From Deinococcales bacterium (GTDB taxonomy: Bacteria > Deinococcota > Deinococci > Deinococcales > JAAFIG01), in assembly GCA_013298595.1 (NCBI GenBank), contig JAAFIG010000017.1, positions 1 through 64,000 of the forward strand: DNA of 64,000 nt, in the 5' to 3' direction. Under the pieces are notes generated by a model. That model saw only the letters and a list, made by a program, of their open reading frames with translations. It was not told where the DNA came from and made no database searches. Below, in pieces: positions 1 to 64,000 of this stretch. The stretch's first letter is position 1. Each line of letters starts with the position of its first letter. A program made the translations under genes and the position numbers.

Positions 1-941
1 CAGGCTACTGCTTTAGTGCTTTGTTTGCCACCTTTGGGATTGTTTATCGGTACGCTGTTTGGTTGCAACGCCCAGCCACCCAATTGTACTGGCAGCGTGG
101 TTGGAGTTTATTCTGGCAACGCGGACATCGGCTCGAGCATGGGCTATGGTTTTTTCGGGTGGCATTTGAAAAACTGATCGAGCAGCGCTTTATTTTTAAG
201 CGCTCCAAGCAACGCTGGATTGCTCATCAACTGATTTTCTGGGGTTGCTTACTGGCAATTGCGATTACTTTTCCATTATCGTTTGGATGGTTGCGTTTTG
301 AATCCAGTGCGGCTCGAGCCGATGTTTATTTAATGGTTTTATTTGGTTTCAGACTCGAGTTTACGCAATTTGTGGCGCGTTCGGTGATTGGTTGGATTAT
401 TTTTCATTTGCTCGATGTCTCGGCAGTGCTGTGCCTAGCGGGTGTTGCCATGAGCTTAGCGCGGCGAATGCGCGACGAAGCTGAAATTGTCACGCAACGC
501 GTGGACAATGATTTTATTCCCTTACTTTTGCTCTTTGCAGTTTCGGTCACGGGTTTAATGCTGACGGTTTCCAATATGTTCATGGCAGGCAAATTTTATT
601 ACTGGATCACCACCACCCACGCCGTAACCGTGATGCTGTGGTTGCTCTTTTTGCCTTTTGGCAAGTTCTTTCATATTTTCCAACGGGTTGCCAATATGGG
701 AGTCTGGTTTTACAAAGCGGCTGGGGTGCAAACCCAACAAGCCAAATGCACAAAATGCCAGACCGAATACACCAGTTTAATGCACCGTGACGACCTCAAA
801 GTCATCCTGCCGCAACTCGAGTTTAATTACGCCATGAAACCCGACTCGAGTGCCGAATCTTGGCAAGACCTTTGCCCCAGTTGTCGCCGTAAGCTCGTGA
901 CCGCCAATCAATTCCGTGTGGCTGGAAAACAATTTCTTTAA
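1..941 (+). CDS. Membrane cytochrome b-like subunit of the nitrate-reductase-like complex (5' partial)
   Basis: The frame is open from the first bases of the window, so the true start lies upstream. About five hydrophobic segments are visible. Histidines sit at membrane edges in the contexts RWIAHQ, IIFHLLD, TTHAVT and FFHIFQR, the pattern of a di-heme cytochrome b such as NarI or DsrM. The C-terminal tail is soluble and carries two CxxC pairs (CTKCQ and CPSCRR), which could hold a metal or Fe-S centre. The stop is 11 bases before the catalytic subunit, so the two are probably co-transcribed. The likely role is moving electrons from quinol to the Mo enzyme. Family assignment is by hydropathy and histidine pattern only. 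Confidence 0.6.
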   Translation, partial: GYCFSALFATFGIVYRYAVWLQRPATQLYWQRGWSLFWQRGHRLEHGLWFFRVAFEKLIEQRFIFKRSKQRWIAHQLIFWGCLLAIAITFPLSFGWLRFESSAARADVYLMVLFGFRLEFTQFVARSVIGWIIFHLLDVSAVLCLAGVAMSLARRMRDEAEIVTQRVDNDFIPLLLLFAVSVTGLMLTVSNMFMAGKFYYWITTTHAVTVMLWLLFLPFGKFFHIFQRVANMGVWFYKAAGVQTQQAKCTKCQTEYTSLMHRDDLKVILPQLEFNYAMKPDSSAESWQDLCPSCRRKLVTANQFRVAGKQFL

Positions 942-952
942 GGAGGCTCATC

Positions 953-3277
953 ATGTCAACACTGCCCAGCCCAGCAACAGCGCTACTCGAGGAATTCGGA
1001 CCGCATTTACAATACGCCCCGCCAAGTGGTTTTCAGACCAGTCTCGAGCCAGATAAATTGGTGGACACACACTGCTGTTTTTGTGGTCAGGGATGCGGCA
1101 TTACCTTGAAAGTCAAAGACAACGAAGTGATTGGTTTTGTGCCTCGAGAAGACTTTCCGTTTAACAAAGGTAAACTCTGTCCTAAAGGCGTAAAACGCTA
1201 CCTGCAAGGTGGGCATACCGACAGGTTGCTCTACCCAATGCGCCGCACCGAAGATGGATTTGAGCGCATTACGTGGGATATGGCACTCGAGGAAACCGTT
1301 ACGAAAATCAAGCAGATTCAAAATAAGTACGGACGCGATGCCTTTGCGATGCTTTCGGGTGTGAGTTTAAGCACCGAAAAAAGTTATTTGGTTGGCAAGT
1401 TTGCACGGCTCGCCTTACAAACCGCCAATCTCGATTACAACGGGCGGCTGTGCATGGTTTCAGCAGGGGCTGGCAACAAAAAAGCCTACGGTATTGACCG
1501 CTCGAGCAATTCTTGGGAAGACATTGTGGATGCCAAAGTGATCTTTGTGATTGGTGCAAATGTAGCCGAATGCGCCCCAATCACCACCGATTATATTTGG
1601 CGAGCCAGAGACAAAGGTGCAAAACTGATCTATGCCGACCCGCGCATGGTGCCAATGGCTCGGACTGCCGATTTATTCTTACCCTTAAAACCAGGTACAG
1701 ACAGCGCCTTACTGATGAGTATGCTGCACGTCATCATCCAAGAAAAACTGACCGATGATGCCTTTATTAAAAACCACACCACTGGCTTTGAAGAAGTACG
1801 CGAAGCTGTCAAGCACGCCCATCCAGAATGGGCAGAGAAACTTACAGGCATCCCCGCTTTTCAGATTCGCCAAGCCGCCCGAATGTACGCCGAAGCACCG
1901 ACAGGATTTATCCTCCACGCTCGCGGACTCGAGCATCAAACCAAAGGCGTGGACAATGTGGTCAGTTGCGCCAATCTGGCATTGGCAACAGGAAAAATTG
2001 GCAAGGCGGGTTGTGGTCACAGCACCATCACAGGACAAGGCAATGGTCAAGGTGGACGCGAACATGGTCATAAATGCGATCAGTTACCCGGCAACCGCGA
2101 CATTAGCAATCCCGAACACCGCAAGTACATCGCCAGTATTTGGGGCTGCGAAGAAACCGAGATTCCCGGTAAAGGCTTATCCGCCCAAGAAATCATGAAT
2201 GCGATTCACGCAGGCGAAATCAAAGGACTGTTATCCATCTGCTTTAACCCACTGGTCAGCTTACCCGATGCCAATTTTACTCGAGAAGCCCTCGAGAAAC
2301 TCGAGCATTACAGCGTGATAGATTTTTTCTTATCCGAAACTGCCCAACACGCCGATATTGTCTTCCCCGGCAGCCTGCACGAAGAAGACGAAGGCACAGC
2401 CACCACCGCCGAAGGACGGGTCATTCGCATCAAAGCGGCTGTATCCCCACCGGGCGAAGCCAAACTCGACTGGCAAGTGCTGCTCGAGATTGCCAAACGC
2501 TTGGGACGCGGACAGTATTTTCCATACACCAGCACCGAACAAATTTTTAATGAATTACGCCTTGCCTCCAAAGGTGGCACAGCCGATTACAGCGGCATTA
2601 CATGGGAACGGCTCGAGCAACAACAAGGAATGTTCTGGCCCGTACCACAAACCACTGAAACAGGAAAGAACGCCACTCGAGTCGAGGATTTAGACACCAA
2701 TCACACAGGTACACCACGCCTGTACGAAAACGGACGGTTTTATGACCCAGATGGCAAAGCCCACTTTAATGCCGTGCAATGGCGCGAACCTGCCGAAGTT
2801 GTGGACACAAAATACCCCATTTGGCTGACCACAGGACGAGTCATCAGCCAGTACCTCAGTGGAACACAAACCCGCCGAATCGGACCGCTTGTGGATATGT
2901 ACCCAAACCCCTTGGTGGAAATGCACCCACGATTAGCCCAAGCCCTGAACATCACCGATCAGCAATGGATAACCGTACAAACCAGACGCGGACAACTGAC
3001 CTTACGCGCCTCCGTGGTCAAAACCATACGCCCAGACACGATTTTTATCCCGTACCACTGGGGCGGCAAACAAAGCGCGAATTTACTGACCAACCGCGCC
3101 CTTGACCCCGTATCAAAAATCCCAGAATTCAAGGTTTGCGCTTGTGATGTACGCCCCGCCACACCCGAAGAAATACTCGAGGGACGTAATGCTGAACTTG
3201 ATGCAAACCGACTCGCACCAACCAAAGTATTTACCGACACCGAACTCGAGGCACGCAGACAGGAAGTGAAACGATGA
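953..3277 (+). CDS. Molybdopterin oxidoreductase, nitrate-reductase-like catalytic subunit
   Basis: This 774-residue protein belongs to the DMSO-reductase family. The N-terminus has the [4Fe-4S] pattern CCFCGQGCG followed by LCPKG (about residues 41-81). Further on there are bis-MGD-binding blocks such as [11 protein letters not shown] and the C-terminal molydopterin-dinucleotide-binding domain from about residue 640. There is no twin-arginine signal, so it should work in the cytoplasm. The start is set by AAGGAGG at 940-946. It overlaps the ferredoxin gene by four bases. Two NarK carriers nearby make nitrate the best substrate guess; formate or another oxyanion cannot be excluded from sequence. 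All ten Leu-Glu pairs are encoded CTCGAG. Confidence 0.8.
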
Positions 3278-3918: not shown

Positions 3919-3919
3919 G

Positions 3920-4614: not shown

Positions 4615-4623
4615 TTTCTCTTT

Positions 4624-4642
4624 TCAACTATGCAGAAGTTGA
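4624..4642 (+). terminator. Possible weak terminator after the nitrate-reductase-like operon
   Basis: TCAACT and AGTTGA form a six-base-pair stem ten bases after the last stop, followed within a few bases by a T-rich stretch. The stem is short and the T run is interrupted, so this is only suggestive. The rest of 4615-4730 shows nothing. Confidence 0.25.
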
Positions 4643-12749: not shown

Positions 12750-12967
12750 AAATGATCTTGTCCAAAAACAAAGTCGTTGTAAATCTGTTTAAATCACCAC
12801 ATCAATACCTACCAGCATAGTTCATTGTGCTGGAAGCATTTGTATTTGCATTAAAATGAAGCGACCTCGTGGTTGCCCTCTCCAGTTTTGGAACGAGTTT
12901 TCTTTTATAGCAGCTCTCACTTTTCCATTCAAATCACAACAACTCATATTCACGCAATTTCGGTTTC

Positions 12968-13051
12968 ATGTCGTGGTTCTTTGACTTTTTGACAAGCAAG
13001 CACGACATAATGACAAGTATGCTTGACAAATTGCCAAGGATGATTTACACT
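12968..13051 (+). promoter_or_regulatory. Promoter with inverted and direct repeats upstream of the small basic protein
   Basis: TTGACA at 13023-13028 and TACACT at 13046-13051, 17 bases apart, form a good sigma-70-type promoter. Upstream, ATGTCGTG (12968-12975) and CACGACAT (13001-13008) are an exact inverted repeat. TGACAAG followed by A-rich and GC bases occurs twice (12990 and 13011), the second running into the -35. This looks like an operator region. The rest of 12750-12967 shows no gene, only a loose hairpin around 12815-12835 (CCAGCA/TGCTGG). Confidence 0.6.
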
Positions 13052-13087
13052 CTTTTTATTCAGCAAGACCACAAAGGAGTGACACTT

Positions 13088-25064: not shown

Positions 25065-25107
25065 GACTTGACAGGCTCGAGTTCAGCCCGTAACATTCTC
25101 GAGATGT

Positions 25108-25182
<75 letters not shown>

Positions 25183-25186
25183 AAAG

Positions 25187-25211
25187 AAACCCTGTGAGAA
25201 ACGGGGTTTTT
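25187..25211 (+). terminator. Rho-independent terminator of tRNA-Thr
   Basis: AAACCCTGT and ACGGGGTTT form a nine-base-pair stem with one G-T pair and the loop GAGAA, running into TTTTT. It starts five bases after the tRNA CCA end. Confidence 0.85.
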
Positions 25212-25222
25212 GCTTTGTAGAT

Positions 25223-25303
25223 TTAGCCAAAACAAGGATTTTGGTTCGGTTTGCAAAGTTGCAACTTTGGTGCTTTTGGATTTCGGTTCAGTGTTTTGGC
25301 TAA
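25223..25303. repeat. 81-base palindromic element with 12-bp terminal inverted repeats
   Basis: TTAGCCAAAACA (25223-25234) and TGTTTTGGCTAA (25292-25303) are exact inverted repeats. The centre holds another perfect palindrome, CAAAGTTGCAACTTTG (25254-25269). It lies between the tRNA terminator and the defence operon. The rest of the gap to 25670 holds only short frames without support. It could be a small mobile-element remnant, an attachment region or a structured RNA. Confidence 0.6.
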
Positions 25304-25670
25304 TCATCCCAAAAAAATATCGATCATTTTAATTTCCTCGCTGCTAATATGTGGGTAGATGTTGGCTGTAGTGCTGGTTTTGGCATGATTTATGCGACGA
25401 TTTTGTGATGGGCATCTTGTAGCATTAAACCAGCGCTTTGAAAAGCTACCATGAAGCTCATCTTGTAATTCAAGTTAAAGTATAACCATCTATGAAAACT
25501 TTTTACCCTCAAACTTTGCATACAGTACATGCTGTGCTGTATGCCACTTTCAATAATAACAGATATAGTAGGCTCAAAAAAGAGATTGATGTTGTAAGAC
25601 ATAAATCAATCGCCAGCAATCTGTGTTGGGTATTTACGATACAGTTCACACACAATTTCTTGGGGGTTCA

Positions 25671-28600
25671 GTGAATATTTTTGATTTCCGTGAAGGTGTG
25701 ATTAAAGATTACAGTACGTATGTAACCTCGTTTGTCCATATTCGTGATCGTGAAATTCGTGAATATGTCGAGCAGCATTTAAGCGATGGTACTTTCTGGC
25801 CCGATCCTTTGGTGCAACTCAATCCCAATTTCACCAGTGGGGGTAGCATTCAGGGTTTGGTTGACGCTGGGACTTTGCACTTGAGGTGCGCTGAATTGTT
25901 TACTACTCCTCCGCAAAACCAAGTGCCAATTCATTTACATCAGCATCAAAAAGCCGCAATTGAATTAGCCAAGCAAGGGTTGTCGTATGTGGTGACCACT
26001 GGCACAGGTTCAGGAAAGTCTTTAACGTACATCATTCCTATTGTGGATCATGTTTTGCGCCAAGGCTCTGGTCGTGGAATCAAAGCGATCATTGTTTATC
26101 CAATGAACGCGCTTGCCAACAGTCAGTCTGAAGAGTTAGAGAAGTTTATAGGCTCGAGTTCTGAAGTGCGTTTTGCGCGTTACACAGGGCAGGAAAGCGC
26201 TGAGAAGAAAAAAGAAATTATTGCTAATCCGCCCGATATTTTATTGACCAATTACATGATGCTCGAGCTGATTTTGACGCGCATGGACGAAGCTCGTTTG
26301 GTTGAGAGTGCCAAAGACTTGGCTTTTTTAGTCTTTGACGAGTTGCATACTTACCGTGGACGGCAAGGCGCTGATGTTTCGTTGCTGATTCGTCGTTTGC
26401 GTGAGCGCCTTGGAACAACCCAGACCATTTGCGTGGGGACAAGCGCTACGATGTCCTCGAGTGGTTCATTTTCGGAGCGGCAAGCGGCTGTGGCGGGTGT
26501 GGCAGCTAAAATTTTTGGTGTGCCAATCGCGGCGAACCAAGTGATTGGTGAAACCCTCGAGCGGGTGACCAAAGGGGCTGTAGGCGTTTTGGACTTAAAG
26601 CAAGCCCTTGGTGTTGATGTACCTGTGTCTTTCGAGGCGTTTATTGTTGACCCAGTGGCTTCGTGGCTCGAGCAGCAGATTGGTTTGATTGAGCGGTATG
26701 GTCGGTTGGAACGAAATGCTCCCAAAGCTATTTCTGGTAAGTCGGGTTTGGCTTCAGACCTGAGCAAATTAACGGGTATTAATCAAGGGCAATGCAAAGA
26801 CATGATCGAGCAGCGCTTGTTGAGTGGGGTAAAGTTGCGTCACCCTGTCACGGGTCGTGCGGTGTTTGCGTTTCGTTTGCATCAGTTTATTTCTAAAGCC
26901 AGCACGGTTTATGCTCCGCTGACCATGATGGTTAAGCGTTTGGAGCATCTGACCTTGCAAGGACAAATTTTTGCACCAAATTCTGACCGTGGGTTAAGGC
27001 TGTATCCGCTCGAGTTTTGTCGCAATTGTGGGCAAGAGTATTACAGTGTGCGACGCACAACGTTGGATTCACAGGACATTTTTATCGCCCGTGGTGGAAT
27101 TTTAAGCGAAGAAGGCAGCAGTGATGATGGGTATTTATTTTTGGGTGATTGGTCTGATGATGTGTCTCGTTTACCAGAACACTGGCTCGAGGAAAAAAAT
27201 GGGCAACTGAAAATCAAATCAAGTCATAAGCGCGATGTTCCTGAAATCCTGCATGTCAATGGTAAGGGCGAGGTTGGCACGGGGTTACAGGCGGCGTTTG
27301 TGTCTGCCAATTTTAAGTTTTGTTTGTGTTGCGGTGTGAGTTATGTCGGGCGCACTGGCAAAATGACCAAACTGGCTACCCTCTCGAGCGAAGGGCGTTC
27401 CACTGCCACCACCCTGATTAGCATGGCTGCCGTTCAGGGTTTGCGGCGTTCGGATTTGGCACCGAAAGCCCGTAAATTATTGTCATTTACCGACAATCGC
27501 CAAGATGCTTCGCTGCAAGCTGGGCATTTCAATGATTTTGTGTTTGTGGCTTCGCTTCGGGCTGGGCTTGCCGCAGCCTTGAAGCACCAGTCGCTCGAGC
27601 ATGACACAATTGCCAAAGCGGTGTTTGAAGCGATGCACCTCGAGTTAAATGATTTTGCTTCGGATACCAATGTGCGTTTCAGAGAGCGTGACCGTACCAT
27701 CAAAGTTGCCCAAGACGTAATTGGCTATTCGTTGTATACCGATTTAGCCGAAGGCAAACGCCTGACCTTGCCGAATCTCGAGGCGGTGGATTTGGTGCGT
27801 TTTTCGTACCCGTACTTAGAAGAAATTTGTCAGAGTGAGGAATTTTGGGTTGGCTTACATCCAGCTTTGTCACATCCTAGAGCCAATGTCGAGCAGTACC
27901 GTTATGAAGCAGCTCGAGCTTTGCTGGATTGGATGCGTCAGCATTTGGCGATTAAAATTCCGTACTTGGAACGCGAGTGGCTTTCGCGCATGGTTTTGAA
28001 CATGGGTTTGTTGCGCGAGGACAGCCCACTTTATATTCCATCGGATGAACAGAATAAACTTGATGCTGCCACCGTGGTGGCACTTGGCTCGAGAACCAGC
28101 CAGAATTATGATGTGCTGAACTTGGGTCCAATGAGTGCCTTGGGTAAGTACCTGATGCGTCCCAGCACACTCAATTGGGGTTCGCCACTCAAGCAACTAG
28201 ATGCACAGCAATTGCTCGAGGGATTGTTCAAAGCACTATCGGAGTTTATTGAAGCAGTGGATGACAATGCCTATCAACTCAAAGGCACTGCTTTTCTATG
28301 GCACGCTGGCGAGGGAACAGAGGCTTTCAGGGATACGTTGCGGGTGATTCGCCCTGAAAACAGCGACCCACCAAGGGTCAATCCATTTTTTCTTGGGTTG
28401 TACAGGCAGCCCTCGAGTCACTTTAAGAACTTACAAAGCGCTGAACACACGGCTCAGATTCGCTCAGATGAACGTGAAAAACGCGAACACCAATTTCGTG
28501 AGGGCAATCTGCCCGCGATGTTCTGTTCACCAACCATGGAACTCGGGGTTGACATTGCCGATTTGAATGTGGTGCATATGCGAAACGTGCCACCAACTCC

Positions 28601-30707
28601 AGCCAATTATGCACAGCGCTCAGGTCGAGCTGGTCGTGGTGGAGAACCTGCTTTGGTGCTGACGTATGCCACCACAGGCAATAATCATGACCAGTATTTT
28701 TTTCGTCGCCCAGCGTTGATGGTGGGTGGTGCAGTCACCACACCGCGTTTGGATTTAAGTAACCAAACCTTGTTGCGTTCGCACCTCCATGCGTTGTGGT
28801 TGGCTGAAACAGGGCAGAACTTGCCCAGTTCACTGGCTGATATTCTCGATATGAACGGCGAAGAACCCAGTTTGGAGTTGCTCGAGGAGATCAAAAAAGT
28901 ATTTGCTTCGCCACTGGTCTGGCAGCGCAGTGTGACTCGAGCAAGGCAACTGCTCGAGCATTTAGGTGTGGATTTACGCAGCACCACTTGGTTTAATGAT
29001 TCTTGGCTCGAGCAAACTTTGCAAGCCGCACCTTTTGAATTTAATAAAGCTTGTGATCGTTGGCGTGAATTGTACAAAAGTGCGTTATCGCAACTGAATT
29101 TGAACAATGGTGTGCTTGCCGATGCCAGTAAACGCCATTGGCATGAAACTGCTAAGCGTTTGCACAGTGAAGCCAACATTCAACTGGCACTACTGCGAAA
29201 TGATGAAGGTGAACAATCCGATTTTTACACCTACCGCTATTTGGCTTCGGAAGGTTTCCTGCCCGGTTATAACTTTGCAAGGTTGCCTCTCTCAGCGTAC
29301 ATTCCTGGGCGGCGAGTTGGCAAACAGGCTTCGGATAGTTATTTGTCGCGTCCAAGGTTTTTGGCAATCAGTGAATTTGGACCGAATGCAATTGTTTACC
29401 ATAACGGGGCGAAGTACGAAGCCCATAAGGTGATTGTGCCAGCCCGAGGCGAAACCAGCGAACTCCCTGTGACCAGCGCTCAGCGTTGCGAGCAGTGCGG
29501 TTACTTGCACTTTGGTACGCCCAGCGACTTGTGCCAGAATTGCCATACCAAATTGCCGCCGCCTCAAGTCAATTTGTTTCGTATGACTTCGGTGGCTACC
29601 CGTCGGCGTGAACGAATTGGTTCGGATGAAGAGGAACGTCAACGCATTGGTTTTGAAGTGCAGAGTGGTTTGCGTTTTGCAACCCGAGGTGGGCAGTCTG
29701 ACAGGCTCGAGATGCTTGCCCGAACCGACCAAACCGATTGTCTGCGTTTGACCTATGGTGATGGTGCGACCTTGTGGCGCATCAATTATGGTTGGCGTAA
29801 CCGCAGTAACAAAAACGAGCTTGGATTTTTGTTTGACCCTGAGACTTCGCAGTGGTTGACTCAGAAGAAGCTCGAGGAGAAACAACGCGATGCTGTAAAG
29901 CGCGAAGTGCATGTGCAACGGGTGATTCCCTATGTGGCGGACACCCGCAATGTGCTGCTGATCGAACCACCAACTGCCAGTGATGCCAATACCATGGTGA
30001 CCCTGATGAGCGCCTTAAAAAACGCAATTCAATTGGTCTATCAACTCGAGGACAGCGAATTGGCAGCCGAGGTGCTGCCGAATGCTCAGCAACCACGTCA
30101 GATTTTGTTGTTCGAGGCTTCTGAAGGTGGAGCTGGGGTGCTACAAGATTTGCTGTTGCAAGCAGGGAAGCTACCCGAAGTGGCTCGGCGGGCACTCGAG
30201 TTGCTGCACTTTGAGCCAAGCACAGGCGAAGACGAAGGTCATGCCCTCACCACAGGTGAGCCTTGTGTGGCAGCTTGTTATGATTGCTTGATGACTTACG
30301 GCAATCAGTCGCATCATGAAAAACTGGATCGTTTTAAGGTCAAGAATTTGTTCTTGGCACTGACCCAATGCCATCTCGAGTCAGCGCAGCCAAGCAGCAG
30401 CAGCCCGTTGGATGATTTGCAACGCGCCTGTCTGCGTCAACTCGAGCGTGATTGGTTGGATATGTTGGTGCAAAAGCGTTTGCGTTTGCCGAGCCAAGCC
30501 CAAGCGAGGCTCGAGCAGTACGATGCTACTGTGGATTTTTTGTATCACCAAGAAGCCTCCGTGATTTTCATTGGGCAGCCACAGCCTGCGCTGGTGGACA
30601 AACTCGACTTAGCGGGTTTCACCGTGATTGTCTTTGCCGAAGACCCCAACTCTTGGGCAGGCGTTTTGCAGCGTCACGCATTCTTATTTGGAGATGGTCA
30701 TGTTTGA
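25671..30707 (+). CDS. DEAD/DEAH-box helicase with C-terminal DUF1998 (DrmA-DrmB / DruE-like defence helicase)
   Basis: 1678 residues with a GTG start. (V/M)NIFDFRE at the start is the usual opening of this family, and GGGGG lies just upstream. Walker A TGTGSGKS is at about 110, the DELH box in [14 protein letters not shown] at about 222, and motif [12 protein letters not shown] at about 982. Zinc-type cysteine pairs occur (CRNCG, CLCCG, CEQCG...CQNC). A DUF1998 block with [19 protein letters not shown] is at about 1530. The last 100 residues ([19 protein letters not shown]) look like a decayed PD-(D/E)XK nuclease-like domain. It overlaps the next gene by eight bases. Domain content matches DISARM DrmA plus DrmB fused, or Druantia DruE. 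Confidence 0.82.
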
Positions 30708-33501: not shown

Positions 33502-36500
33502 ACCAGCCTTTATTGCATCATCTGACCGTGCATGGACTGGGTTTCACCACCGATTTTCTATTGCAACTCTCCGACCGAGCGCAAACCAGTAAACTCGAGC
33601 ATACCCGCCCCGAAAGTTATGACTTACCACCCAAAACCACGCTCGAGGAAGCCATTCAAGATGCTTGGGATGATGCCCGTAAACACTGGAAAAAACACCA
33701 AGACCACCAAACCGATGTCTGGACTGGCTGGCTGCGTCCACTCCTGAAAATCCTTGATTACAGCCTCATCAGCGCCCCAACAGGCACGAAATTCGCGGTG
33801 CGTTACCAAACCGAAACAGGTGAAATCCCCGTGCATTTTAGTTTATTTGACCTTGACCCTGTGAACACCGAAACAGGCTCGAGAATCAGTCCGCACGGGA
33901 TTCTGCAAGGGCATTTGAACACCACCCCCAACCAACTTTGGGGATTGGTCTGCAATACCGAAAAACTGCGTTTGCTGCGCGATAACGCCCAGATGACTCG
34001 AGCTGCGTATCTTGAATTTGACCTGAGCGAAATCATGAAAACCGAGGACACCAAAGCCTTTCGGGTGTTGTGGTTGCTGCTGCACCGCTCGAGGTTCAAG
34101 AATGCTCAGCAAAGCATCTTGGAAAACTGGAACAGCCGAGCCAACGAAGAAGGTGTCAAAGCTCGGGATGACCTGCGCGACCAAGTGAAAACCGCGATTG
34201 AACACCTCGGCACAGGTTTTTTGCAACACAACCCAGAAATCCACGCCCAAGTCAAAACCAGCAACGCCGAACTGAGCAACCTTTACCGCGAATGCCTAAA
34301 ACTGATTTACCAAATGGTGTTCTTATTTGTGACCGAAGACCGCGATTTGTTGTTTGCCAAAAAATCAGACAATACCTACACCGCCAGCGCCGAAACTCGA
34401 GAACGTGCCAAGCACTACCTGACCCGCAGCATCCGCACCAAAGCCAGCCGCACCAAAGGCAACCCCCTGCACACCGATGCCTACATGGGATGGCAAACCC
34501 TGATTGGGCATCTGCGCGGCGGATTTGCCCCACTTGGACTGCCCGCCCTCGGCAGCCATTTGTTCGCCCCAAACCGCCTCAGCGCCTTAAAGTTACCCAA
34601 CAATTTCTTTTACAGCGCCATCCACGCCCTAAGCGAAATCAGCACCGATAATACCCGCCGCCCAGTCAATTACGCAGGGCTGGACTCCGAAGAACTTGGC
34701 AGCATCTACGAAAGCCTGCTCGAACTCGTACCAAGCATCGAACCCGGAGGCAGATTAACCCTCGAGACACTGGCAGGTAACGAACGCAAAACCACAGGCA
34801 GTTATTACACCCCAAGCAGCCTGATTCAACTGCTGCTCGAGAGTGCGCTTGACCCTGTGATACAAGAAGCCACCAAAAACAAAACCACACCCGAAGCAAT
34901 TCTAGCCCTAAAAAACCTAAAAATCATAGACCCAGCTTGTGGGTCTGGACATTTTCTAATTGCTGCTGCAAGGCGAATAGGCGCAAAACTAGCCGAATTA
35001 GAAGAAGACACCAGCATCCCCAGTCCAAGCGCCCTGCGCCGCGCCACCCGCACGATCATTGCCCATTGTATTTACGGCGCGGACATCAACCCAATGGCAA
35101 TCGAACTTGCCAAAGTTGCCCTGTGGCTCGAGGCACAAGATGCGGGTAAACCACTGGCGTTCTTGGATCATCGGTTAAGAGTCGGTAACAGTTTACTTGG
35201 CACCAGCCCCGAACTGATGTTCGCACCCGACAGCATAACCGAACGAAGCAAAACCAATAAAAACGATGTTATTACCACCACCAGAACCACCCTGCATTTA
35301 CCCAACGAAGCCTTTGCCGCCATCGAAGGCGACGATAAACCAACCGTAGCCGCTTTGAAAAAAAGCAACACCAAAGAACGCGAGCATTATGTCGAACTGG
35401 CAATTAACGCCACCATGTTCGACTTTGCCCAAACCAACACCAACGCCATTTTTGCTGCTTACAAAGAACTGGATGCGATTGAACCAGATTCACTCGAGGA
35501 AGTCAAACGCCAAGAAGCCAAATTCGATGAGATTCTGCAAAAAACCGAATTACAACAAAGTAAACTGCTTGCCGATGCGTGGTGCGCTGCTTTTGTGACA
35601 CCCAAAACCCCAGACAGCCTAAAAATAACCACCACCATTCTGAACCAGTTGCTACAAAAACCAAGCGCCCCTGAACTCGAGCCAATCCGAGACTTGGTGC
35701 AAAGCACCGCCAAGCAATACCAATTTTTGCACCCGCACATAGAATTTGCTGATGTCTTCACCGCCACCCAAAAAGGCTTTGACTGCGTTCTAGGCAACCC
35801 CCCGTGGGAAGCGCCAGAAGAAAACAAAGAAAACTCAGTTTTAGAAAATAGAATTATTTATGGCTTACAACATTTTGTAAATAATTCCAATCGCTTTGAA
35901 TTGACTTCTGGAGGGAAAAATCTATATTTATTTTTTACCGAACTGTCAACTAATTTACTCAAAGAATCAGGTAATTTGGGTATTATAGTTCAAACAGAAA
36001 TAATTCAATCCAAGCCCGCAGAAAGGATTTCTAGTTACCTTGTGAAAAGTAAAATACTGAAATCTTTGTACGATTTTGAAAATAAAAAAGTATGGTTTCC
36101 TGCTATCGATTCAAGATTAAGATTTTCGCTAATTTCAATATCAAGAACAAATACTAAAAACTCACAATTTGTGTTTGATATTACGAGCCTAGATGAGATT
36201 AAACAGCCAGAACGAATCATTGACCTAAGCTACGAAATTTTTTCAAATGCTTCCCCTTCCCGCTTTAGTATTCCAGCTTTCAAGAATAGTAAGTCAGCCA
36301 AGTTGTTTTTGACTATGGCTGCTCGATTACCAATGATGGCTTCAGACAACTCAAGTCTATCTGGAACTTTGATGTTTAACTTTGAAGCCAGCGACAAAGC
36401 CATAAAAATGCAAAGTAATGGCACTCAAATTGAAAACACCTACAACACTTATGATGGCGAAAACATACACCAATTTGAGTTTCAAAGAAAAGGTTCAAAT

Positions 36501-37223
36501 GAAGCCGATGCGCCATTTGTTACTGAATTCTTAATGCCTAAACCTTTTGTTAATGAAAAATTGACAAAACTGTTTGACTGTATCCCGACTTGGATTCTGG
36601 TTTTGCGTAGGCAAGCTCGAGGCAATGATTCATTCGTAGGAATTTCGGCGATCATCCCAACTGCCGCAGTTGAAGGCAGTCTATCCGTCATTAAGATTAA
36701 AAACAACTCACCAGTTTTAGCGGCAACCACAGTGGCGAATTTTAATTCTTTCTGCTTCAATTATTTAGTCGCCTTGAGAATTTCTGGACCAAATGTGAAT
36801 AAAGGTGTTTATGAACAGATTCCAATTGTTTTTAACAACGAAACACGAATTCTTAGCTCAGTGATACCTTTTATTATTCCCCGCGTCCTCGAACTCACCT
36901 GCACCGCCCACGACCTCAACGGCTTCGCCACCGACCTCGGCTACACACAACAACCCTTCACCTGGAACACAGAACGCCGCTTCTGGCTACGCGCCGAACT
37001 CGACGCACTCTACTTTCTGCTCTACGGCATCGCTCGAGCCGACGTGGAATACATCATGGATACCTTCCCAATTGTGCGCCGCAAAGACGAAACAGCCTTT
37101 GGGGAGTACCGCACCAAAAACGCCATCCTCGAGATATTCGATGCCCTACAAGGCTTGGGCTTAGAGCGCCTGCTCGAGTATCAGAGTCGGGTGGAGAATG
37201 TGGCGGGTGGGTGGAAACCATAA
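33498..37223 (+). CDS. Eco57I-like N6-adenine DNA methylase (DrmMI-like), with a mosaic specificity region
   Basis: 1241 residues, coupled to the SNF2 gene by an ATGA overlap. Motif I is [14 protein letters not shown] at about 477 and the catalytic motif IV is LGNPPWEAP at about 766. The region before motif I is helical, as in Eco57I-type enzymes. From about residue 778 to 1124 the DNA turns AT-rich and CTCGAG nearly disappears; this stretch should contain the target-recognition domain. Composition returns to normal for the last 115 residues. It would mark self DNA for the two helicases. The frame is intact throughout. Confidence 0.85.
35825..36875 (+). other. Compositionally foreign segment inside the methylase gene
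   Basis: Just after the NPPW motif the sequence becomes AT-rich, with codons such as AAA, TTA and ATT. It stays so until about 36875, where GC-rich codons return abruptly (CCCCGCGTCCTCGAAC). Within about 1.05 kb there is a single CTCGAG (36616), against five or six per kb elsewhere. The reading frame is open across both borders. This marks an exchanged specificity segment. Confidence 0.7.
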
Positions 37224-37254
37224 TTTGATGCGGCTCGAGGACATAAGCAAAAGG

Positions 37255-37331
37255 GGGTCTACGCGGCGCAGACCCCTCCGTCTCGCTGCGCTCGCCACCT
37301 CCCACTACCTTTCGGTAGGGGAGGCTTTTTT
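37255..37331 (+). repeat. REP-like hairpin, possible terminator of the methylase operon
   Basis: GGGTCT/AGACCC forms a first stem at about 37255-37275. It is followed by CTCCGTCTCGCTGCGCTCG, a sequence typical of dispersed bacterial repeats. A second strong stem CCTCCCACTACC/GGTAGGGGAGG lies at 37298-37324 and ends in six T residues. It is placed 30 bases after the methylase stop, so it probably ends that transcript. Confidence 0.65.
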
Positions 37332-37380
37332 GAGTCAGACACGATTTTTGAGTTCACAGTAAAGCAATGAAAAACCAACC

Positions 37381-37410
37381 GTAGGGGCGGGGCTTGCCTC
37401 GCCCACTGGG
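37381..37410. repeat. REP-like palindrome GGGCGGGGC-TT-GCCTCGCCC
   Basis: GGGCGGGGC (37385-37393) pairs with GCCTCGCCC (37396-37404), with one G-T pair and a TT loop. The flanking CGTAGGGGCGGGG form is common among dispersed bacterial repeats. It is one of three GC-rich palindromes in the spacer before McrBC. Confidence 0.6.
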
Positions 37411-37472
37411 AGATTACTGCGTAGACGGACTTGAAATTGCGTTCAGTTTCGTGTATTTTTCTAAACAACAAC

Positions 37473-37514
37473 ATCCGCCACGCCCCTTTGTGGGCGCACC
37501 AGGGCGGATTTTTT
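37473..37514 (+). terminator. GC-rich hairpin followed by T run in the McrBC spacer
   Basis: ATCCGCC (37473-37479) pairs with GGCGGAT (37503-37509), and inside it CGCCC pairs with GGGCG. A run of six T follows at 37509-37514. It may be a REP copy or a terminator; no gene is close enough upstream to decide. Confidence 0.5.
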
Positions 37515-37590
37515 ATGACGACTTAGGCTGAGGCGGTACGCTCGAGCATAAATTTGGTTATGAGCAAGTTTCCACGAGTGAGCGCCGACA

Positions 37591-37713
37591 AGTATGTGCA
37601 TATTTTGCACATACTGCTTTTCTTGGAAAGACAACTGTTGCAAATTCTGCAACAGTTCAAAACCTCGAGCTTGAGGCTTTCACTCTAAATCTTATTTCAC
37701 TACTATAGTGAAA
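37591..37713. promoter_or_regulatory. Three consecutive perfect inverted repeats upstream of the mcrB cassette
   Basis: AGTATGTGCA-N5-TGCACATACT (37591-37615), AACTGTTGCA-N5-TGCAACAGTT (37633-37657) and TTTCACTA-N3-TAGTGAAA (37695-37713) follow one another. A weaker GGTGAA/TTCACC pair lies further on. They end 45 bases before the TATACT box of the mcrB-start copy. Their regular arrangement suggests operators for regulation of the following genes. Confidence 0.55.
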
Positions 37714-37757
37714 ATGACTCTTTGGTGAATTTATCAATTTTCACCTATTTGACTTGC

Positions 37758-37763
37758 TATACT
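37758..37763 (+). promoter_or_regulatory. Extended -10 box before the mcrB-start copy
   Basis: TGCTATACT is an extended -10 promoter. It lies eight bases before the ATG at 37772. The intact mcrB has TATAAT (38614-38619) at the same eight-base distance from its ATG. Confidence 0.5.
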
Positions 37764-37771
37764 CGAGCCAC

Positions 37772-37855
37772 ATGACCGAACCTGCATTGACTGCACCGCA
37801 ATTTGTTCTAAGCACTCACGGCATCAAAGCCCTTGCCGCCACTTGGTGTGCTTAA
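37772..37855 (+). pseudogene. Truncated copy of the mcrB 5' end (27 codons)
   Basis: The translation MTEPALTAPQFVLSTHGIKA closely matches the first 20 residues of the McrB at 38628 (MTEPALAAPQFVLSAYGIQA). It then ends at a stop after 27 codons. The DNA is near-identical over about 40 bases. It has its own promoter and may now act as a leader peptide for the metallopeptidase gene, which starts two bases after its stop. Confidence 0.7.
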
Positions 37856-37857
37856 AG

Positions 37858-38421
37858 ATGCAATCGCCTTTTGCTCAAAGCCTCATCAGCCAATTGAATG
37901 AACACGAAACACTGTATTTTTTGACAATACTAGAAGAAATAGGAGTAGCACATTTACTTGCACAGCACCCATTGAAAAGCCTCGAATTTTTAGAGACTGT
38001 TGAATTTGAGGGTAGGTCAGTCAATGGTATTTACAGTTTTTTTGAGCAAAGTGTACAGGTTGCCGTTCATCGGGATGAGTCTGAATTTCATGCTGTGTAT
38101 CGTAAACAAGAATTTTGGAGCATCAGCAGTTTGGCTACTACTTCTAAGGATGCCATTGCTCGTACTTTAGCGCATGAAATTGGGCATCATCTTCATCATA
38201 TTTTGGAGTTATTGCACCCGCAGTCTTTTCGCGCAACGATTCTTTATCCCCGAAGCAATGGTTTAAGCCAGTATGCCTTGCAGAGCAATCGAGAATACTT
38301 TGCGGAGTGCTTTGCCGCTTTTGTTTATCAAAGAGTCGAGCTTTTCATGGATGATGGCTTTGGCTATGCTATGATGAATCAAAGCCTGAAAGCCTTGGGC
38401 TTAGTGGTCAGGGAACGATAA
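37858..38421 (+). CDS. Predicted zinc metallopeptidase of the McrBC cassette
   Basis: 187 residues. The motif LAHEIGHHLHHILELL (HExxH at about residue 105) and a downstream glutamate in REYFAECFAAFVYQRVE (ExxxAAF) form a probable zinc site, similar in layout to ImmA/IrrE-like or lethal-factor-like peptidases. No signal or membrane helix. The start at 37858 was preferred to an in-frame TTG at 37843 that lies inside the mcrB-start copy. It contains no CTCGAG in 564 bases, suggesting recent arrival. It overlaps the next small gene by one base (TAATG). Confidence 0.65.
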   Translation: MQSPFAQSLISQLNEHETLYFLTILEEIGVAHLLAQHPLKSLEFLETVEFEGRSVNGIYSFFEQSVQVAVHRDESEFHAVYRKQEFWSISSLATTSKDAIARTLAHEIGHHLHHILELLHPQSFRATILYPRSNGLSQYALQSNREYFAECFAAFVYQRVELFMDDGFGYAMMNQSLKALGLVVRER

Positions 38422-38618
38422 TGCTAACACTCGAGAAACTGGTTGTTCAAGAAATGTCTTCTTCAGACTTGGCTAATTATGTCACCTTAGCAAGGTTAGA
38501 TGGTTCTTTAACCCGAGATGAATTTTGGCAAATTATCACAGAACTCAAGTCTCGTGGGACACATCCAGAAGTCTTGGCGGGTGTTTCAGGAGAAGTTCAT
38601 CCCAGTTGGCGTTTATAA
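38421..38618 (+). CDS. 65-residue partner protein of the metallopeptidase
   Basis: 65 residues, start overlapping the metallopeptidase stop (TAATG). It is acidic and helical, with no recognised domain. It ends ten bases before the mcrB ATG. The tight coupling to a peptidase gene suggests a cognate inhibitor or regulator; this is inference from layout only. Confidence 0.5.
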   Translation: MLTLEKLVVQEMSSSDLANYVTLARLDGSLTRDEFWQIITELKSRGTHPEVLAGVSGEVHPSWRL

Positions 38619-38627
38619 TCTTAGTTC

Positions 38628-41600
38628 ATGACCGAACCTGCATTGGCTGCGCCGCAATTTGTTTTAAGTGCTTATGGCATCCAAGCCCATGCTGAATTGC
38701 GCTCGGATGCTTTTGTGGTGCTGGCTGGCAGTGGCGCTCGGCTCGAGACAGTGCCATCTTTTGCAGTTCATATGAAAGGGTACGCTGCGTTGCGCCAGAA
38801 GTTCCTCGATTCTGGTCAACTTGTACTTGATGGTGAGCAATTGCTTTTTGTAGCTGATACAGTTTTTTCTAAGCCAAGTGCAGCAGCGTCCGTTATCATG
38901 GCAAGAGGGGCAAATGGGCATAAGGATTGGAAGGTTCTGGGGCAAGAAAAGCAGAGCTTTGGCGAGTGGTTCAAAATCAATAAAACGACGTTGACCCCAC
39001 AAGCGCTGGCGCAACTCGAGGCTTCAGAATTTACTTGGATTGCGTTTTTCAAAGAATTAGCCGTGCGTCTGCTCGAGTTTGAATCTAAGCAACCTGATTT
39101 GGTTCAGCTTCTGAAAAATGCGGCGGTCAACATCCAAGATGATGATGGTCTGCCACTGCTTGTCCTTGACCCATTTTCGTTTTTTTCTTTGGTTCTCAAG
39201 CACAAAAGCCAAGCCAAAATTTTCGAGGTTTGCTCGAGTCTGAAATCCCAATTGAATCTGCTCTCCGATGTTCCCACAGATTTGTTTGGGGTACCGAGCA
39301 GCAACGCTCAAAATGCGTGGTTCTTTGCTTTCCGCGCTCGGCGCTCGGATGCTGATTTGCCCACGCTTTGGGCGTTGGCACGCCAAGCAGTGGCGGGTGT
39401 TCTCGAGCCGCAGACTTTTGCACAGGCTTTGCAGATTCGCATGGTTGGACTTGCCAAGCTCACCCAAGGGCTTTTTTGGTTGAACCCAGAAGTGTTCTTG
39501 CCGCTTGACGCGGTGGTTTTGGGCTACCTCGAGCCTTTAGGAATTAGAAACGGAGCGAAAACCCAATCCCTGACTGAGTACCAACAGATTCTCGAGTTTG
39601 CCAGAACCATTGAACCAGATTTTGCTTTGCTTTCCTATCAGGCTTGGTTGAGTTTGCAGCCGATTGGTGCGGCGACACTCGAGGATGGCGCTTTTCCGTG
39701 GACGGCTTTCATCGCCGATGTTGCCCTGCATCAAACTGATTTTGCCAAAGGTAACATGATTTTGGATCGCAAATACGCGGCGTTGTTGCTGCAATTACTT
39801 CAGTCCGAAACTTGGCAGCAACTTGTGCCAGTCAAAGCCCCGTACAGCAATAAAGAACAATTGGCAGCTCAAGTTGATCTGGGCAAGACTGCTTTTTTCT
39901 CGGCTCGAGCCTTGCTATTTGCCGATCACAATGGTTTCGACCAAGCCCCGTTCTTGGCGGGCTTAACCTTTGAGATGCAGTTACAAGCTAACCCACAGCT
40001 CGAGTCTTTGCTTGTCCCACTACCGCATGACTTAACGCCTTCGCTGTTGGTAGGCAAACAGGCTGTGCTTTTAGAAGCCACTCAAGAAGCACAACTCAAA
40101 CTTGTACTCGAGAATCCACAAGCACCGTTGCGAATCAGGCTGAACTTAACACCAGCAGATTTAGAGGATCAATTCTTTGCCGATAAACTCGAGGCGGCTC
40201 TAAATTATTTGGATCAGATTCAATTCTTGGATGTCAGTGCCACACCACCCTTGGAGGAAGCCATCATGCCGCAATTCGAGCCACTGCCTAACGTACCACT
40301 GAATCAGATTTTTTATGGCGCTCCGGGTACAGGGAAAACATTTAAGGTGGTCAGCGAAGCGCTTCGTATCCTCGAGCCAAGTATTTTAACTGAATCTCGA
40401 GAAGTGCAGAAAAAACGCTTCGATCAGCTACTGGCAGCAGGTCAAATCAGTTTCGTGACTTTTCATCAGTCATTTGGTTACGAGGATTTTGTCGAAGGTA
40501 TCAAGCCCGTGCTGCAAAACGGTCAGATCAGTTATGAACTCGAGGATGGCTTGTTGATGCAAGCCGTCAAAGCTGCCAATGGTGTCGTGGCAGCACCAAC
40601 TCTTAGCCCAATCAAGCAAGATGGTCAAGTCTGGCGAATGTACATTGATGGCACTGTACCAGTAAGCCAATTGCGTGACCGTTGCTTGGAACGCGGCGAG
40701 ATTCGCATGGGCAGTTGGGGCAAAATCCCTTTTGATTTGAACACTGCTCCCGATGACCAACTCGAGTATCAACAAGGCTTGTTTCGGGATGCCATGCGAA
40801 TGGGTGATTTGGTGTTGCTTGCCACAGGTCAAGACCAAATTTCTGCCATTGGTGTGGTTACATCCGAATACCGTTTTGATGTATCTGACCCGCTTTTTAG
40901 TCATGATTTTGCCCATGCGCGTTCGGTGCGATGGTTGGGTAAAAATCTGGCTTGGAAACCTTCAGTTTTGGTGGGTAAAGTCTTTGCTCGACCAACTTTG
41001 CAACGGGTGTTGGATACCAAACCAGAACAATTCCTGAGCCTTCTCGAGCCAAAAACCGCACCCGTACAATCGTCTGGAATGCGTCCGCATGTGCTGATTA
41101 TTGATGAAATCAACCGTGGCAATGTGGCAAAAATCTTTGGTGAACTGATTACCCTGCTCGAGCCTAATAAACGCCTTGGAGCAGCCGAAGGCTTGCAAGT
41201 CAAATTGCCTCTGAGTAAGCGTTTGTTTGGTGTACCACAAAGCCTGTACATCATTGCGACCATGAACACGGCTGACCGCAGCCTGATGCAACTCGATGCG
41301 GCTTTGCGCCGACGCTTTGTATTTACGGCTGTAGACCCGCAACCAGAGTTGCTGCCTATTCTCACGCTCGAGGATGGCACAGCGCTTGATTTGCCTAAAT
41401 TCTTACATGCCATCAACACCCGAATCCAGCGTTTGCTCAGCCGCGATCAACTGATTGGTCATGCCTATTTCTTTGATTTTGAACCAAGCCTAAATAGTCT
41501 GTCTGACTTGTTACAAAAACGAATTCTGCCTCTGCTCGAGGAGTATTTCTTTGAGGATTGGGGCTTGATTCGTCAAGTGCTTGCCGATGACCAAAAACCC

Positions 41601-41714
41601 CAAGCGCAGCAGTTTATTCGCACTTTTGAAGACAAGCGTTTTGAGCGTAATCCAGAAGCATTTTTGGACATCGAAGCCTATGTTCGGGTTTACAGCGCTG
41701 CAAGGGATTTGTGA
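38628..41714 (+). CDS. mcrB: McrB-type AAA+ GTPase with N-terminal DUF4357 domain
   Basis: 1028 residues. A DUF4357-like domain is at about 60-115 (ARGANGHKDWKVLG). A middle helical region follows, then the AAA+ core: Walker A YGAPGTGKT at about 563 and the McrB signature Walker B IIDEINRGNVAKIFGE at about 823. Sensor-type MNTADRS and arginine-rich DAALRRRF also occur. Between Walker A and Walker B is an insert of about 150 residues (VWRMYIDGTVPVSQLRDR... and GDLVLLATGQDQISAIGVV) that resembles an EVE-like modified-base reader. McrB powers and targets cleavage of modified DNA. It overlaps mcrC by four bases (GTGA). Confidence 0.86.
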   Translation: MTEPALAAPQFVLSAYGIQAHAELRSDAFVVLAGSGARLETVPSFAVHMKGYAALRQKFLDSGQLVLDGEQLLFVADTVFSKPSAAASVIMARGANGHKDWKVLGQEKQSFGEWFKINKTTLTPQALAQLEASEFTWIAFFKELAVRLLEFESKQPDLVQLLKNAAVNIQDDDGLPLLVLDPFSFFSLVLKHKSQAKIFEVCSSLKSQLNLLSDVPTDLFGVPSSNAQNAWFFAFRARRSDADLPTLWALARQAVAGVLEPQTFAQALQIRMVGLAKLTQGLFWLNPEVFLPLDAVVLGYLEPLGIRNGAKTQSLTEYQQILEFARTIEPDFALLSYQAWLSLQPIGAATLEDGAFPWTAFIADVALHQTDFAKGNMILDRKYAALLLQLLQSETWQQLVPVKAPYSNKEQLAAQVDLGKTAFFSARALLFADHNGFDQAPFLAGLTFEMQLQANPQLESLLVPLPHDLTPSLLVGKQAVLLEATQEAQLKLVLENPQAPLRIRLNLTPADLEDQFFADKLEAALNYLDQIQFLDVSATPPLEEAIMPQFEPLPNVPLNQIFYGAPGTGKTFKVVSEALRILEPSILTESREVQKKRFDQLLAAGQISFVTFHQSFGYEDFVEGIKPVLQNGQISYELEDGLLMQAVKAANGVVAAPTLSPIKQDGQVWRMYIDGTVPVSQLRDRCLERGEIRMGSWGKIPFDLNTAPDDQLEYQQGLFRDAMRMGDLVLLATGQDQISAIGVVTSEYRFDVSDPLFSHDFAHARSVRWLGKNLAWKPSVLVGKVFARPTLQRVLDTKPEQFLSLLEPKTAPVQSSGMRPHVLIIDEINRGNVAKIFGELITLLEPNKRLGAAEGLQVKLPLSKRLFGVPQSLYIIATMNTADRSLMQLDAALRRRFVFTAVDPQPELLPILTLEDGTALDLPKFLHAINTRIQRLLSRDQLIGHAYFFDFEPSLNSLSDLLQKRILPLLEEYFFEDWGLIRQVLADDQKPQAQQFIRTFEDKRFERNPEAFLDIEAYVRVYSAARDL

Positions 41715-42934
41715 ACTATCTTCTGCGTGAATACGACACGGTGATTGATGGCTCGCGCTCGGGTTGGAATGGCACTGAATTTAGGCTCGAGACACCTGCT
41801 TTTTTGGAATTGGTAGCGCTGCTCGAGCAAGACGAGAATCTCAAAGGTGTTGCTGAATTCACCCGTATTCGAGGCAAAAACGCGGTCAAGTTCAAACAAT
41901 GGGTTGGGCTGATTCGACTACCTTGCGGTGTCACCCTCGAGATTCTACCTAAAACCCATGTATTTGGCGATTCCCCCGAAGCAAGTCGGGCTTTGTTGGT
42001 GCGAATGCTAACCCGCACCGATCAGCGTTTCCGCACTGCCCCACCTGCCGACCTCGACCCTGCTCAGATGCCACTGCTCGAGGTTTTCTTACAATTTGCT
42101 CTGGCAGGGTTTCAAAAAGCACTGCGCCGAGGCATCCCACACACCTATGTGCGAATTGAAGAGGAACGCAGCAACTTGCGTGGACGTTTGCAAATCACGC
42201 AGCAAATGCGGCAACCTGTGCATCGCAAACACTTACTGCATGTAGCTTATGATGAATACCTTGCTAACCGCCCCGAGAATCGTTTGGTGCGCTCGAGCCT
42301 AGAAGGCATTGTTAAGCTGACCCAGAACGCCAGCACCAAACGCCTTGCCAGACAGGTTTTGGGCTTGCTCGAGGATGTGCCAATTTCCAAAAACATCCAA
42401 GCTGATTTCTCGAGTTGGCGCTTGGAGCGTGGTTATTCGCACTTTGCTGGTTTAGAGCGGCTTTGTCAATTGGTGCTGTTTGAACTGAACCCCTTGATTG
42501 GCGGCGAGACGGCTCAGGGTATCAGTTTGTTATTTGACATGAATCGGTTGTTTGAAGCCTACGTTGCTCAACTGCTCAAAGACCAGCATCCAGATTGGTT
42601 AATTCGGACACAAGCCACAGATTGTTCGCTGGGCGATGTGGGTGGGAAAAGTGTTTTTAAGCTCAAACCAGATTTGCTGATTACACTACCCAATGGTGAA
42701 ATGATTGTGGCGGACACCAAATGGAAACGCTTAAAAAGCGAAGCGGGTGGGTATTATGGTGTTTCCCAAGCCGATGTTTACCAAATGCTGGCATATCGCC
42801 TGACATATCAAGCCACTCAAAGCCACTCAAGATTATGGTTGCTCTACCCAATTGCACCAGATATTCCAGCTCAACTGAATCCAATTGCCTTACCACAAAA
42901 CACAACCCTCGAGATTTGTCAGTTGGATTTGTAG
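41711..42934 (+). CDS. mcrC: McrC nuclease subunit of the McrBC system
   Basis: 407 residues, GTG start overlapping the mcrB stop. The N-terminal half binds McrB. The C-terminal PD-(D/E)XK site is visible as LKPDLLITL (about 318-326) and IVADTKWK (about 330-337). Conserved blocks include YLANRPENRLVRSSL and LLFDMNRLFEAYVAQLL. It would cleave DNA bearing modified bases on activation by McrB. The downstream gene is convergent, so the cassette ends here. Confidence 0.88.
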   Translation: MNYLLREYDTVIDGSRSGWNGTEFRLETPAFLELVALLEQDENLKGVAEFTRIRGKNAVKFKQWVGLIRLPCGVTLEILPKTHVFGDSPEASRALLVRMLTRTDQRFRTAPPADLDPAQMPLLEVFLQFALAGFQKALRRGIPHTYVRIEEERSNLRGRLQITQQMRQPVHRKHLLHVAYDEYLANRPENRLVRSSLEGIVKLTQNASTKRLARQVLGLLEDVPISKNIQADFSSWRLERGYSHFAGLERLCQLVLFELNPLIGGETAQGISLLFDMNRLFEAYVAQLLKDQHPDWLIRTQATDCSLGDVGGKSVFKLKPDLLITLPNGEMIVADTKWKRLKSEAGGYYGVSQADVYQMLAYRLTYQATQSHSRLWLLYPIAPDIPAQLNPIALPQNTTLEICQLDL

Positions 42935-42938
42935 CTTG

Positions 42939-42973
42939 TTTCAACTTGGGGCAGTTTCTTGCTTGAGTTGAAA
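42939..42973. terminator. Inverted repeat after mcrC
   Basis: TTTCAACT (42939-42946) and AGTTGAAA (42966-42973) form an eight-base-pair stem just after the mcrC stop. It lacks a clean T run in the forward direction. It may be a weak terminator between the convergent mcrC and methyltransferase genes. Confidence 0.4.
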
Positions 42974-43058
42974 GCTTTGTGAACAGATGCTGTAGAATGC
43001 TTTTTAACGGGTACAGTTTTAGGCAGAACAAAGCTGCAATTTCAGAATTTTTTATTTA

Positions 43059-59976: not shown

Positions 59977-59982
59977 AATTAC

Positions 59983-60684: not shown

Positions 60685-60693
60685 ATTCTTCTC

Positions 60694-61215: not shown

Positions 61216-61312
61216 CTACTTTGGCAAAAATCTAAGTACAGTCAAGTAAACTTCTGTCTATGAAATCTTTTCTCGAGCCGCAAAAATATAAAACAATAAC
61301 AAGGATTTTTTC

Positions 61313-63818: not shown

Positions 63819-63827
63819 TGGTTCTCC

Positions 63828-64000
63828 TTATAGAAACTCGAGCAAGTTTTGGAGTAGCGCTTCAGGCGCTTCTTCTGGCAAGTAATGCCCACATAAAAGG
63901 GCTTGACCTTGGACATGATTGGCAACTTCACGCCAAGTCTCGAGTGGTGTAAAACATTTTTCGATGGTGCCGTATTTTCCCCATAATGCCAATACTGGCA
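63828..64000 (-). CDS. Alpha/beta hydrolase, C-terminal end (haloacetate dehalogenase-like), truncated by the window
   Basis: Only the last 56 residues are present. PVLALWGKYGTIEKCF and CGHYLPEEAPEALLQNLLEFL match the C-terminal end of alpha/beta hydrolases of the fluoroacetate dehalogenase type, with the catalytic histidine in CGHYLPEE. The start lies beyond the window. Its TAA overlaps the Shine-Dalgarno of the dehydrogenase gene, nine bases away, indicating one transcript. Confidence 0.7.
   Translation of the reverse strand, partial: PVLALWGKYGTIEKCFTPLETWREVANHVQGQALLCGHYLPEEAPEALLQNLLEFL

Follow-up and report, generated by a model that had tools for sequence, protein, structure and literature searches.

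HIP1 (GCGATCGC) and the alternate highly iterated palindromes (HIPs) of cyanobacteria are short palindromes that are in genome-wide excess in coding and non-coding DNA, follow whole lineages with sporadic losses and have no known function; to our knowledge, what HIP1 does has been an open question since 1995. The known alternate HIPs are at least 75% GC (guanine plus cytosine), reach approximately 1,000 to 2,000 copies per Mb, and are found in genomes that each have a matching methyltransferase (Elhai 2015, PMC4390886). The palindrome CTCGAG has the same general properties in a 64,000-nucleotide stretch of a Deinococcales bacterium (assembly GCA_013298595.1, contig JAAFIG010000017.1, positions 1 to 64,000), referred to here as the window, and in the genome to which it belongs (G000). 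CTCGAG is a HIP-like highly iterated palindrome in a new phylum, a counterpart of HIP1, and is strongest in the family of the host. HIP1 had been proposed as the parallel in a preliminary description made from the window sequence, and the choice was apt: as in HIPs, CTCGAG exceeds both base composition and Markov expectation genome-wide, and every frame, like the DNA between genes, holds more of it than codon usage predicts. A cyanobacterial origin, prompted by this parallel, was ruled out: HIP1 proper (GCGATCGC) does not occur in the window, the RpoB is of the Thermus type and the host is not a cyanobacterium.

CTCGAG is unlike the HIPs in phylum and word, in comprising 6 bp with little flank extension, and in its short-range repulsion and proteome-wide Leu-Glu excess; no matching methyltransferase was found in common among the CTCGAG-rich genomes compared. 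At 67% GC and approximately 5,900 to 7,700 copies per Mb it falls outside the HIP figures, which describe known examples and do not define the class, and it is about three times denser than HIP1. The DNA uptake sequence (DUS) of Neisseria and the uptake signal sequence (USS) of Haemophilus resemble it as over-represented, potentially own-DNA-marking words that are commoner just after genes. Known uptake words are asymmetric, 9–12 bp long and present about once per kb, and those of Neisseria and Haemophilus often lie at gene 3' ends; CTCGAG, in contrast, is palindromic, shorter and much denser, and shows no excess in competent Thermus. Chi sites are also short words over-represented genome-wide, but are asymmetric and strand-biased, whereas CTCGAG is its own reverse complement and has no orientation. 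XhoI/PaeR7I-type restriction-modification sites are the same word; restriction sites are normally avoided, however, whereas CTCGAG is enriched, and no conserved cognate enzyme was found in the genomes compared below. A search of the open literature returned cyanobacterial HIP work and nothing on CTCGAG in Deinococcota, in agreement with the preliminary description, which knew of no account of CTCGAG in such a role; subscription papers and REBASE lay outside the search, and a prior description is possible.

The window contains 386 CTCGAG sites (6.0 per kb), spread evenly at 5 to 17 per 2-kb bin. A recount of the first 3.3 kb gave exactly the 19 sites previously reported, and the excess of over twentyfold claimed from them proved larger, at approximately 30 fold genome-wide. 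The sites and the longest interval between them are as follows.
1..64000, no strand: 386 exact CTCGAG palindromes, counted over the window.
132..3250, no strand: the 19 CTCGAG sites of the first 3.3 kb, with first bases at 132, 313, 354, 816, 845, 986, 1043, 1143, 1286, 1501, 1928, 2280, 2291, 2300, 2483, 2612, 2676, 3176 and 3245.
25098..26153, no strand: the longest CTCGAG-free stretch in the window, 1055 bp, GC 0.42.
Further CTCGAG-free gaps of more than 700 bp lie at 7015-7914, 12315-13115 and 35676-36616.

Base composition predicts 13.6 sites in the window and a first-order Markov model 7.0, or 4.4 when the sites are masked first (maxima of 14 and 10, respectively, in 100 simulations). 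The third-order Markov expectation is high (120), as 4-mers from the sites themselves enter the model; third- and fourth-order models were rejected as null models, being misleading in that the 4- and 5-mers of CTCGAG carry the signal. The preliminary description had allowed that the count might match a third-order expectation, or that the excess might be limited to the window. Neither is the case: the observed 386 is 3.2 fold above the third-order figure, and the whole genome (4.58 Mb) holds 27,159 sites, equal to 5.93 per kb or about one every 170 letters. When CTCGAG was compared with the other 6-bp palindromes, as had been proposed, 464 kb of the same genome contained 2,747 copies against a first-order expectation of 49, while the next highest palindrome reached only 1.4 fold, leaving CTCGAG alone in such excess. 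The over-representation relative to composition is approximately 30 fold, and thus the under-representation typical of avoided restriction sites is not seen.

To separate the signal from codon usage, a control was built from codons outside the sites. The three coding frames of G000 held 1355, 553 and 421 CTCGAG sites, against 35, 34 and 14 predicted, and the intergenic density (5.78 per kb) was close to the coding density (5.93 per kb); over the frames and the DNA between genes, the excess beyond codon usage was 10–40 fold. Codon usage, including high-GC Leu-Glu codons, was ruled out as the cause by this simulation. Density peaked in the 60 bp that follow genes, where constraint is lowest, at 9.0 per kb in G000, 16.3 in G002 and 9.8 in G003, and the intergenic density of G002, 12 per kb, was about twice its genome average. 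Specificity in G000 was for exactly six bases with no flanking information; weak flank preferences were seen in G003 and G002. At synonymous Leu-Glu slots, 67% were CTCGAG, compared with 1.8% predicted by codon usage outside the sites. Leu-Glu pairs themselves were in excess, with observed/expected (O/E) ratios of 2.3–2.4 in G000 and G003 versus 1.13 in G004, and 67–75% of those in G000 and G003 were encoded as CTCGAG. The DNA signal therefore reshapes the proteome by raising Leu-Glu frequency. These results bear out two statements of the preliminary description, that the sites occupy all three frames as well as noncoding gaps and that their driver acts on DNA and not on protein; Leu-Glu pairs are even created by the signal.

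The phylogenetic position of the host was assessed with RpoB. The best match of G000 RpoB was Thermus RNA polymerase (PDB) at 1565 bits, and no other group exceeded 1162 bits; RpoB of G007, from the same order, scored 2179 bits, identifying G007 as a Thermus. In an RpoB tree built from ten genomes of the order and outgroups from Actinobacteria, the host's own family (f1) grouped with family f2 (support 91/94), apart from G006 and Thermus. RpoB thus places the host in a Deinococcota family, and the neighbouring family is presumably Trueperaceae, judging from position only; genus and family names other than Thermus, such as "Meiothermus-like", are those we infer. Armatimonadetes affinity, suggested by the relatives of one window gene, was dropped, as the gene in question encodes a molybdopterin oxidoreductase of wide occurrence and is no marker.

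A density survey of 111 genomes showed that the signal extends across the order. Densities were 5.9–6.5 CTCGAG per kb in f1; 6.2–7.7 in g11 and 3.6 in g8 of f2, but 0.30 in g4 of the same family; and mostly 1.4–3.4 in the Meiothermus-like genera of f5. G006 (f4) had 2.9 per kb, G140 (f3) 2.3 per kb and Thermus (g7) approximately 0.8 per kb. With the codon-usage control, excess in non-Leu-Glu frames and intergenic DNA was present in f1, g8, g11, G006, G091, G085 and G140; no excess was found in G004 or Thermus, both of which lay under codon expectation. Moderate counts in some other GC-rich genomes, taken without this control, may reflect codon usage. Read most simply, the signal is ancestral and has been lost at least twice, once in Thermus and once in the sister-family genus g4.

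Separately, a metagenome-assembled genome labelled Chthonomonas (G042) strongly avoids CTCGAG, with 36 copies in 5.4 Mb. CTTAAG was enriched in small samples of Thermus G007 (15 in 20 kb, O/E 9.9) and G005 (17 in 18 kb, O/E 4.2), where it is possibly another iterated palindrome.

Aligned orthologs were used to follow individual sites. Of 157 G000 sites aligned with G002, 48 had CTCGAG at the same position; for G003 the figure was 42 of 112. This gives 31–38% between genera, and 49% for G002 and G003; synonymous third bases outside the sites were near saturation (0.31–0.48 identical, and 31–39% in the comparisons of G000 with G002 and G003). Where G000 and G003 had both kept Leu-Glu at a G000 site, 37 of 43 were also CTCGAG in G003. 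From genus to genus the positions change at constant density; free slots are refilled, and the sites are not fixed elements.

Neighbouring sites repel one another. Pairs no more than 18 bp apart were compared with the number expected if existing Leu-Glu slots were filled at random: G000 had 19 (expected 50.7 ± 4.8), G003 had 28 (63.6 ± 5.0) and G002 had 36 (58.1 ± 4.9). Among fixed Leu-Glu pairs 12–18 bp apart, doubly filled pairs reached 0.70–0.85 of expectation and singly filled pairs 1.23–1.30, and in G000 and G003 the repulsion was visible in every distance class modulo 3. Ordinary 6-bp inverted repeats at 9–18 bp stood at 0.82–1.12 of expectation, and since they are not similarly depleted, hairpin avoidance was rejected as a general explanation of the repulsion. 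Helical phasing at 10–11 bp was also rejected: no clear peak was present, and the 3-bp codon period dominates the spectrum.

The explanation that we tentatively place first is that CTCGAG sites are the targets of a putative DNA-binding protein with a footprint of approximately 20 bp, kept by weak selection or by biased repair. A genome-wide force acting on DNA fills most protein-permitted slots with exactly CTCGAG; each site would be bound by this sequence-specific protein, whose candidate roles are chromosome organisation, repair, recombination and the marking of own DNA. Weak selection for occupied sites, or site-biased repair, would maintain the word. For synonymous Leu-Glu slots its scaled strength comes to about ln(110) = 4.7, and composition gives an estimate of about ln(30) = 3.4. 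On this view the order would have inherited the reader protein from its common ancestor, and Thermus and genus g4 would have lost or altered it. The absence of sites from AT-rich islands, the density peak just after genes and the strict six-base specificity in G000 also speak for this explanation. A bound protein covering about 20 bp would explain repulsion within approximately 18 bp, and the repulsion favours site occupancy over independent conversion. With rather more reserve, a fuller statement may be offered: an order-wide, methylation-independent palindrome of Deinococcota, read by a putative protein of this footprint, through which selection could have rewritten two thirds of Leu-Glu pairs and doubled their number.

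Several points weigh against these proposals. Selection and biased conversion predict the same equilibrium counts, so that counts do not separate them. Contrary to the repulsion, G002 carries 33 tandem CTCGAGNCTCGAG pairs at distance 7 in unrelated contexts. Frame-specific protein constraints could add to the repulsion, although most of these are accounted for by the use of fixed Leu-Glu pairs.

The foremost rival, itself rather unlikely, is a methylation-linked HIP on Elhai's model, in which a CTCGAG methyltransferase and methyl-directed mismatch repair create and keep the sites. It draws on the matching enzymes of all cyanobacteria with alternate HIPs (PMC4390886) and on the methylation of CTCGAG elsewhere, for example as 5-methylcytosine (m5C) in Halorubrum (PMC8112702). 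G000 also encodes an m5C enzyme of the orphan type, which has orthologs in G001 (74%) and G012 (59%) but is missing from G002, G003 and G008. Profiles PF07669, PF01555, PF00145 and PF02384 were run on 12 genomes and PF02086 on 15, and matches to PF07669, PF01555 and PF00145 were compared all against all. No ortholog in these five families was common to the CTCGAG-rich genomes G000, G001, G002, G003, G008 and G012, which does not support the solitary methyltransferase named as a possible driver in the preliminary description, at least as a conserved one; at draft completeness of 91–96%, single misses are possible but a systematic miss is not. A PF05063 (MT-A70) search was uninformative, with zero matches in controls as well. 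The methyltransferases of G000 look like separate systems: one has a NotI-like endonuclease as neighbour and one lies in an AT-rich island, and the others are BREX/TaqI-like, orphan-type m5C, DISARM-type and partial D12 type. G006, a single-contig complete genome with 2.9 sites per kb, has only TaqI-type and HsdM enzymes, and both types are present in signal-free Thermus. Elhai's matching methyltransferase for each HIP genome thus appears not to be reproduced here, in a comparison made by orthology and not by enzyme specificity. Methylation would not, moreover, predict the short-range repulsion.

Mutation or repair bias with neither selection nor methylation, whereby a CTCGAG-recognising repair or recombination enzyme would resolve mismatches toward the site, is less probable still. 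Uniform coding and intergenic density, the turnover of positions and the higher density where constraint is low would all fit. Independent conversion predicts independent neighbouring slots, however, yet sites repel within 18 bp, and a force that doubles Leu-Glu pairs would impose a cost that selection must tolerate.

Thermus and Deinococcus are naturally competent, and enrichment of CTCGAG as a DNA uptake signal, through import and recombination of CTCGAG-bearing DNA, was also considered; we regard it as improbable, more so than either rival above. The densest sites are at gene 3' ends, as the uptake words of Neisseria and Haemophilus often are, and site-free AT-rich islands mark foreign DNA. 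Known uptake words are nevertheless unlike this 6-bp palindrome with its 6 copies per kb, and highly competent Thermus has no excess. CTCGAG-free stretches of 2–4 kb in G000 are mostly such islands, which are probably recent acquisitions; the exception at C34:124429-126892 is a gene with an average GC content. Examples of the islands are as follows.
G000:C34:70632-83408: AT-rich, GC 0.31–0.34, with no CTCGAG for 2–4 kb.
G000:C66:77589-81147: AT-rich, GC 0.31–0.34, with no CTCGAG for 2–4 kb, holding a partial-match N6_N4 methyltransferase gene.
Four viral scans for host phages with the signal yielded mostly GC-rich phages, and the sole AT-rich match of high density was a poly-serine repeat.

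A restriction by-product, with nearly all other 6-bp palindromes avoided and an always protected CTCGAG accumulating, is very improbable and already disfavoured: although the O/E of other palindromes is 0.32–0.48 in the genomes richest in CTCGAG, against 1.03 in G004, absent avoidance would restore expectation only, not 20–30 times above it, and G006 combines the CTCGAG excess with an O/E of 0.95 for palindromes.

Palindrome avoidance was also recorded in its own right. In samples of the CTCGAG-richest genomes (G000, G003 and G002), which are lower in GC, 15–21 of the other 6-bp palindromes fell to less than one tenth of expectation; the comparison with G004 is confounded by GC content. GAGCTC, which has the letters of CTCGAG reversed, so that the two half-sites change places, has 15 copies in the whole of G000 and 2–25 per genome across G000, G001, G002, G003, G012 and G016, and is not scarce in relatives.

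The window also carries a defence gene cluster and other genes.
25623-42934 (25600..43000 in the feature list), plus strand: defence gene cluster with DISARM-like and Dpd-like parts mixed.
33498..37223, plus strand: DNA methyltransferase, Eco57I/N6_Mtase, DrmMI-like, 1241 amino acids.
953-3277: molybdopterin oxidoreductase, formate dehydrogenase-like, 774 amino acids, with closest relatives over several phyla at 62–69% identity.
Besides the DrmMI-like adenine methyltransferase, the cluster encodes a DruE-like helicase (1694 amino acids), a DpdE/DrmD-like helicase (957 amino acids, best model DpdE at 718 bits), a protein with AAA_5 and DUF4357 (1028 amino acids) and two products with no family match. 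CTCGAG density is 5.1 per kb in the cluster and 6.4 in the rest of the window; with this near-background value, the cluster is not a recent import from a signal-free genome. Homologs of the long-type window methyltransferase also occur in G004, a genome without the CTCGAG signal, and the enzyme is therefore a poor candidate for the driver.

Three features go beyond the preliminary description: the signal spans the order, with losses; sites repel one another at short range; and the proteome is reshaped. CTCGAG provides a second, independent HIP-like case, denser than the first and with relatives that lost the signal, which makes the question of function testable. Members that keep CTCGAG are probably cultivable, given their Meiothermus-like and Deinococcus-like genomes, and the losses in Thermus and g4, if true, would offer a natural contrast from which to trace the reader gene. 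A DNA-level signal that reshapes dipeptide usage across the proteome also matters for analyses of codon usage and protein evolution in Deinococcota.
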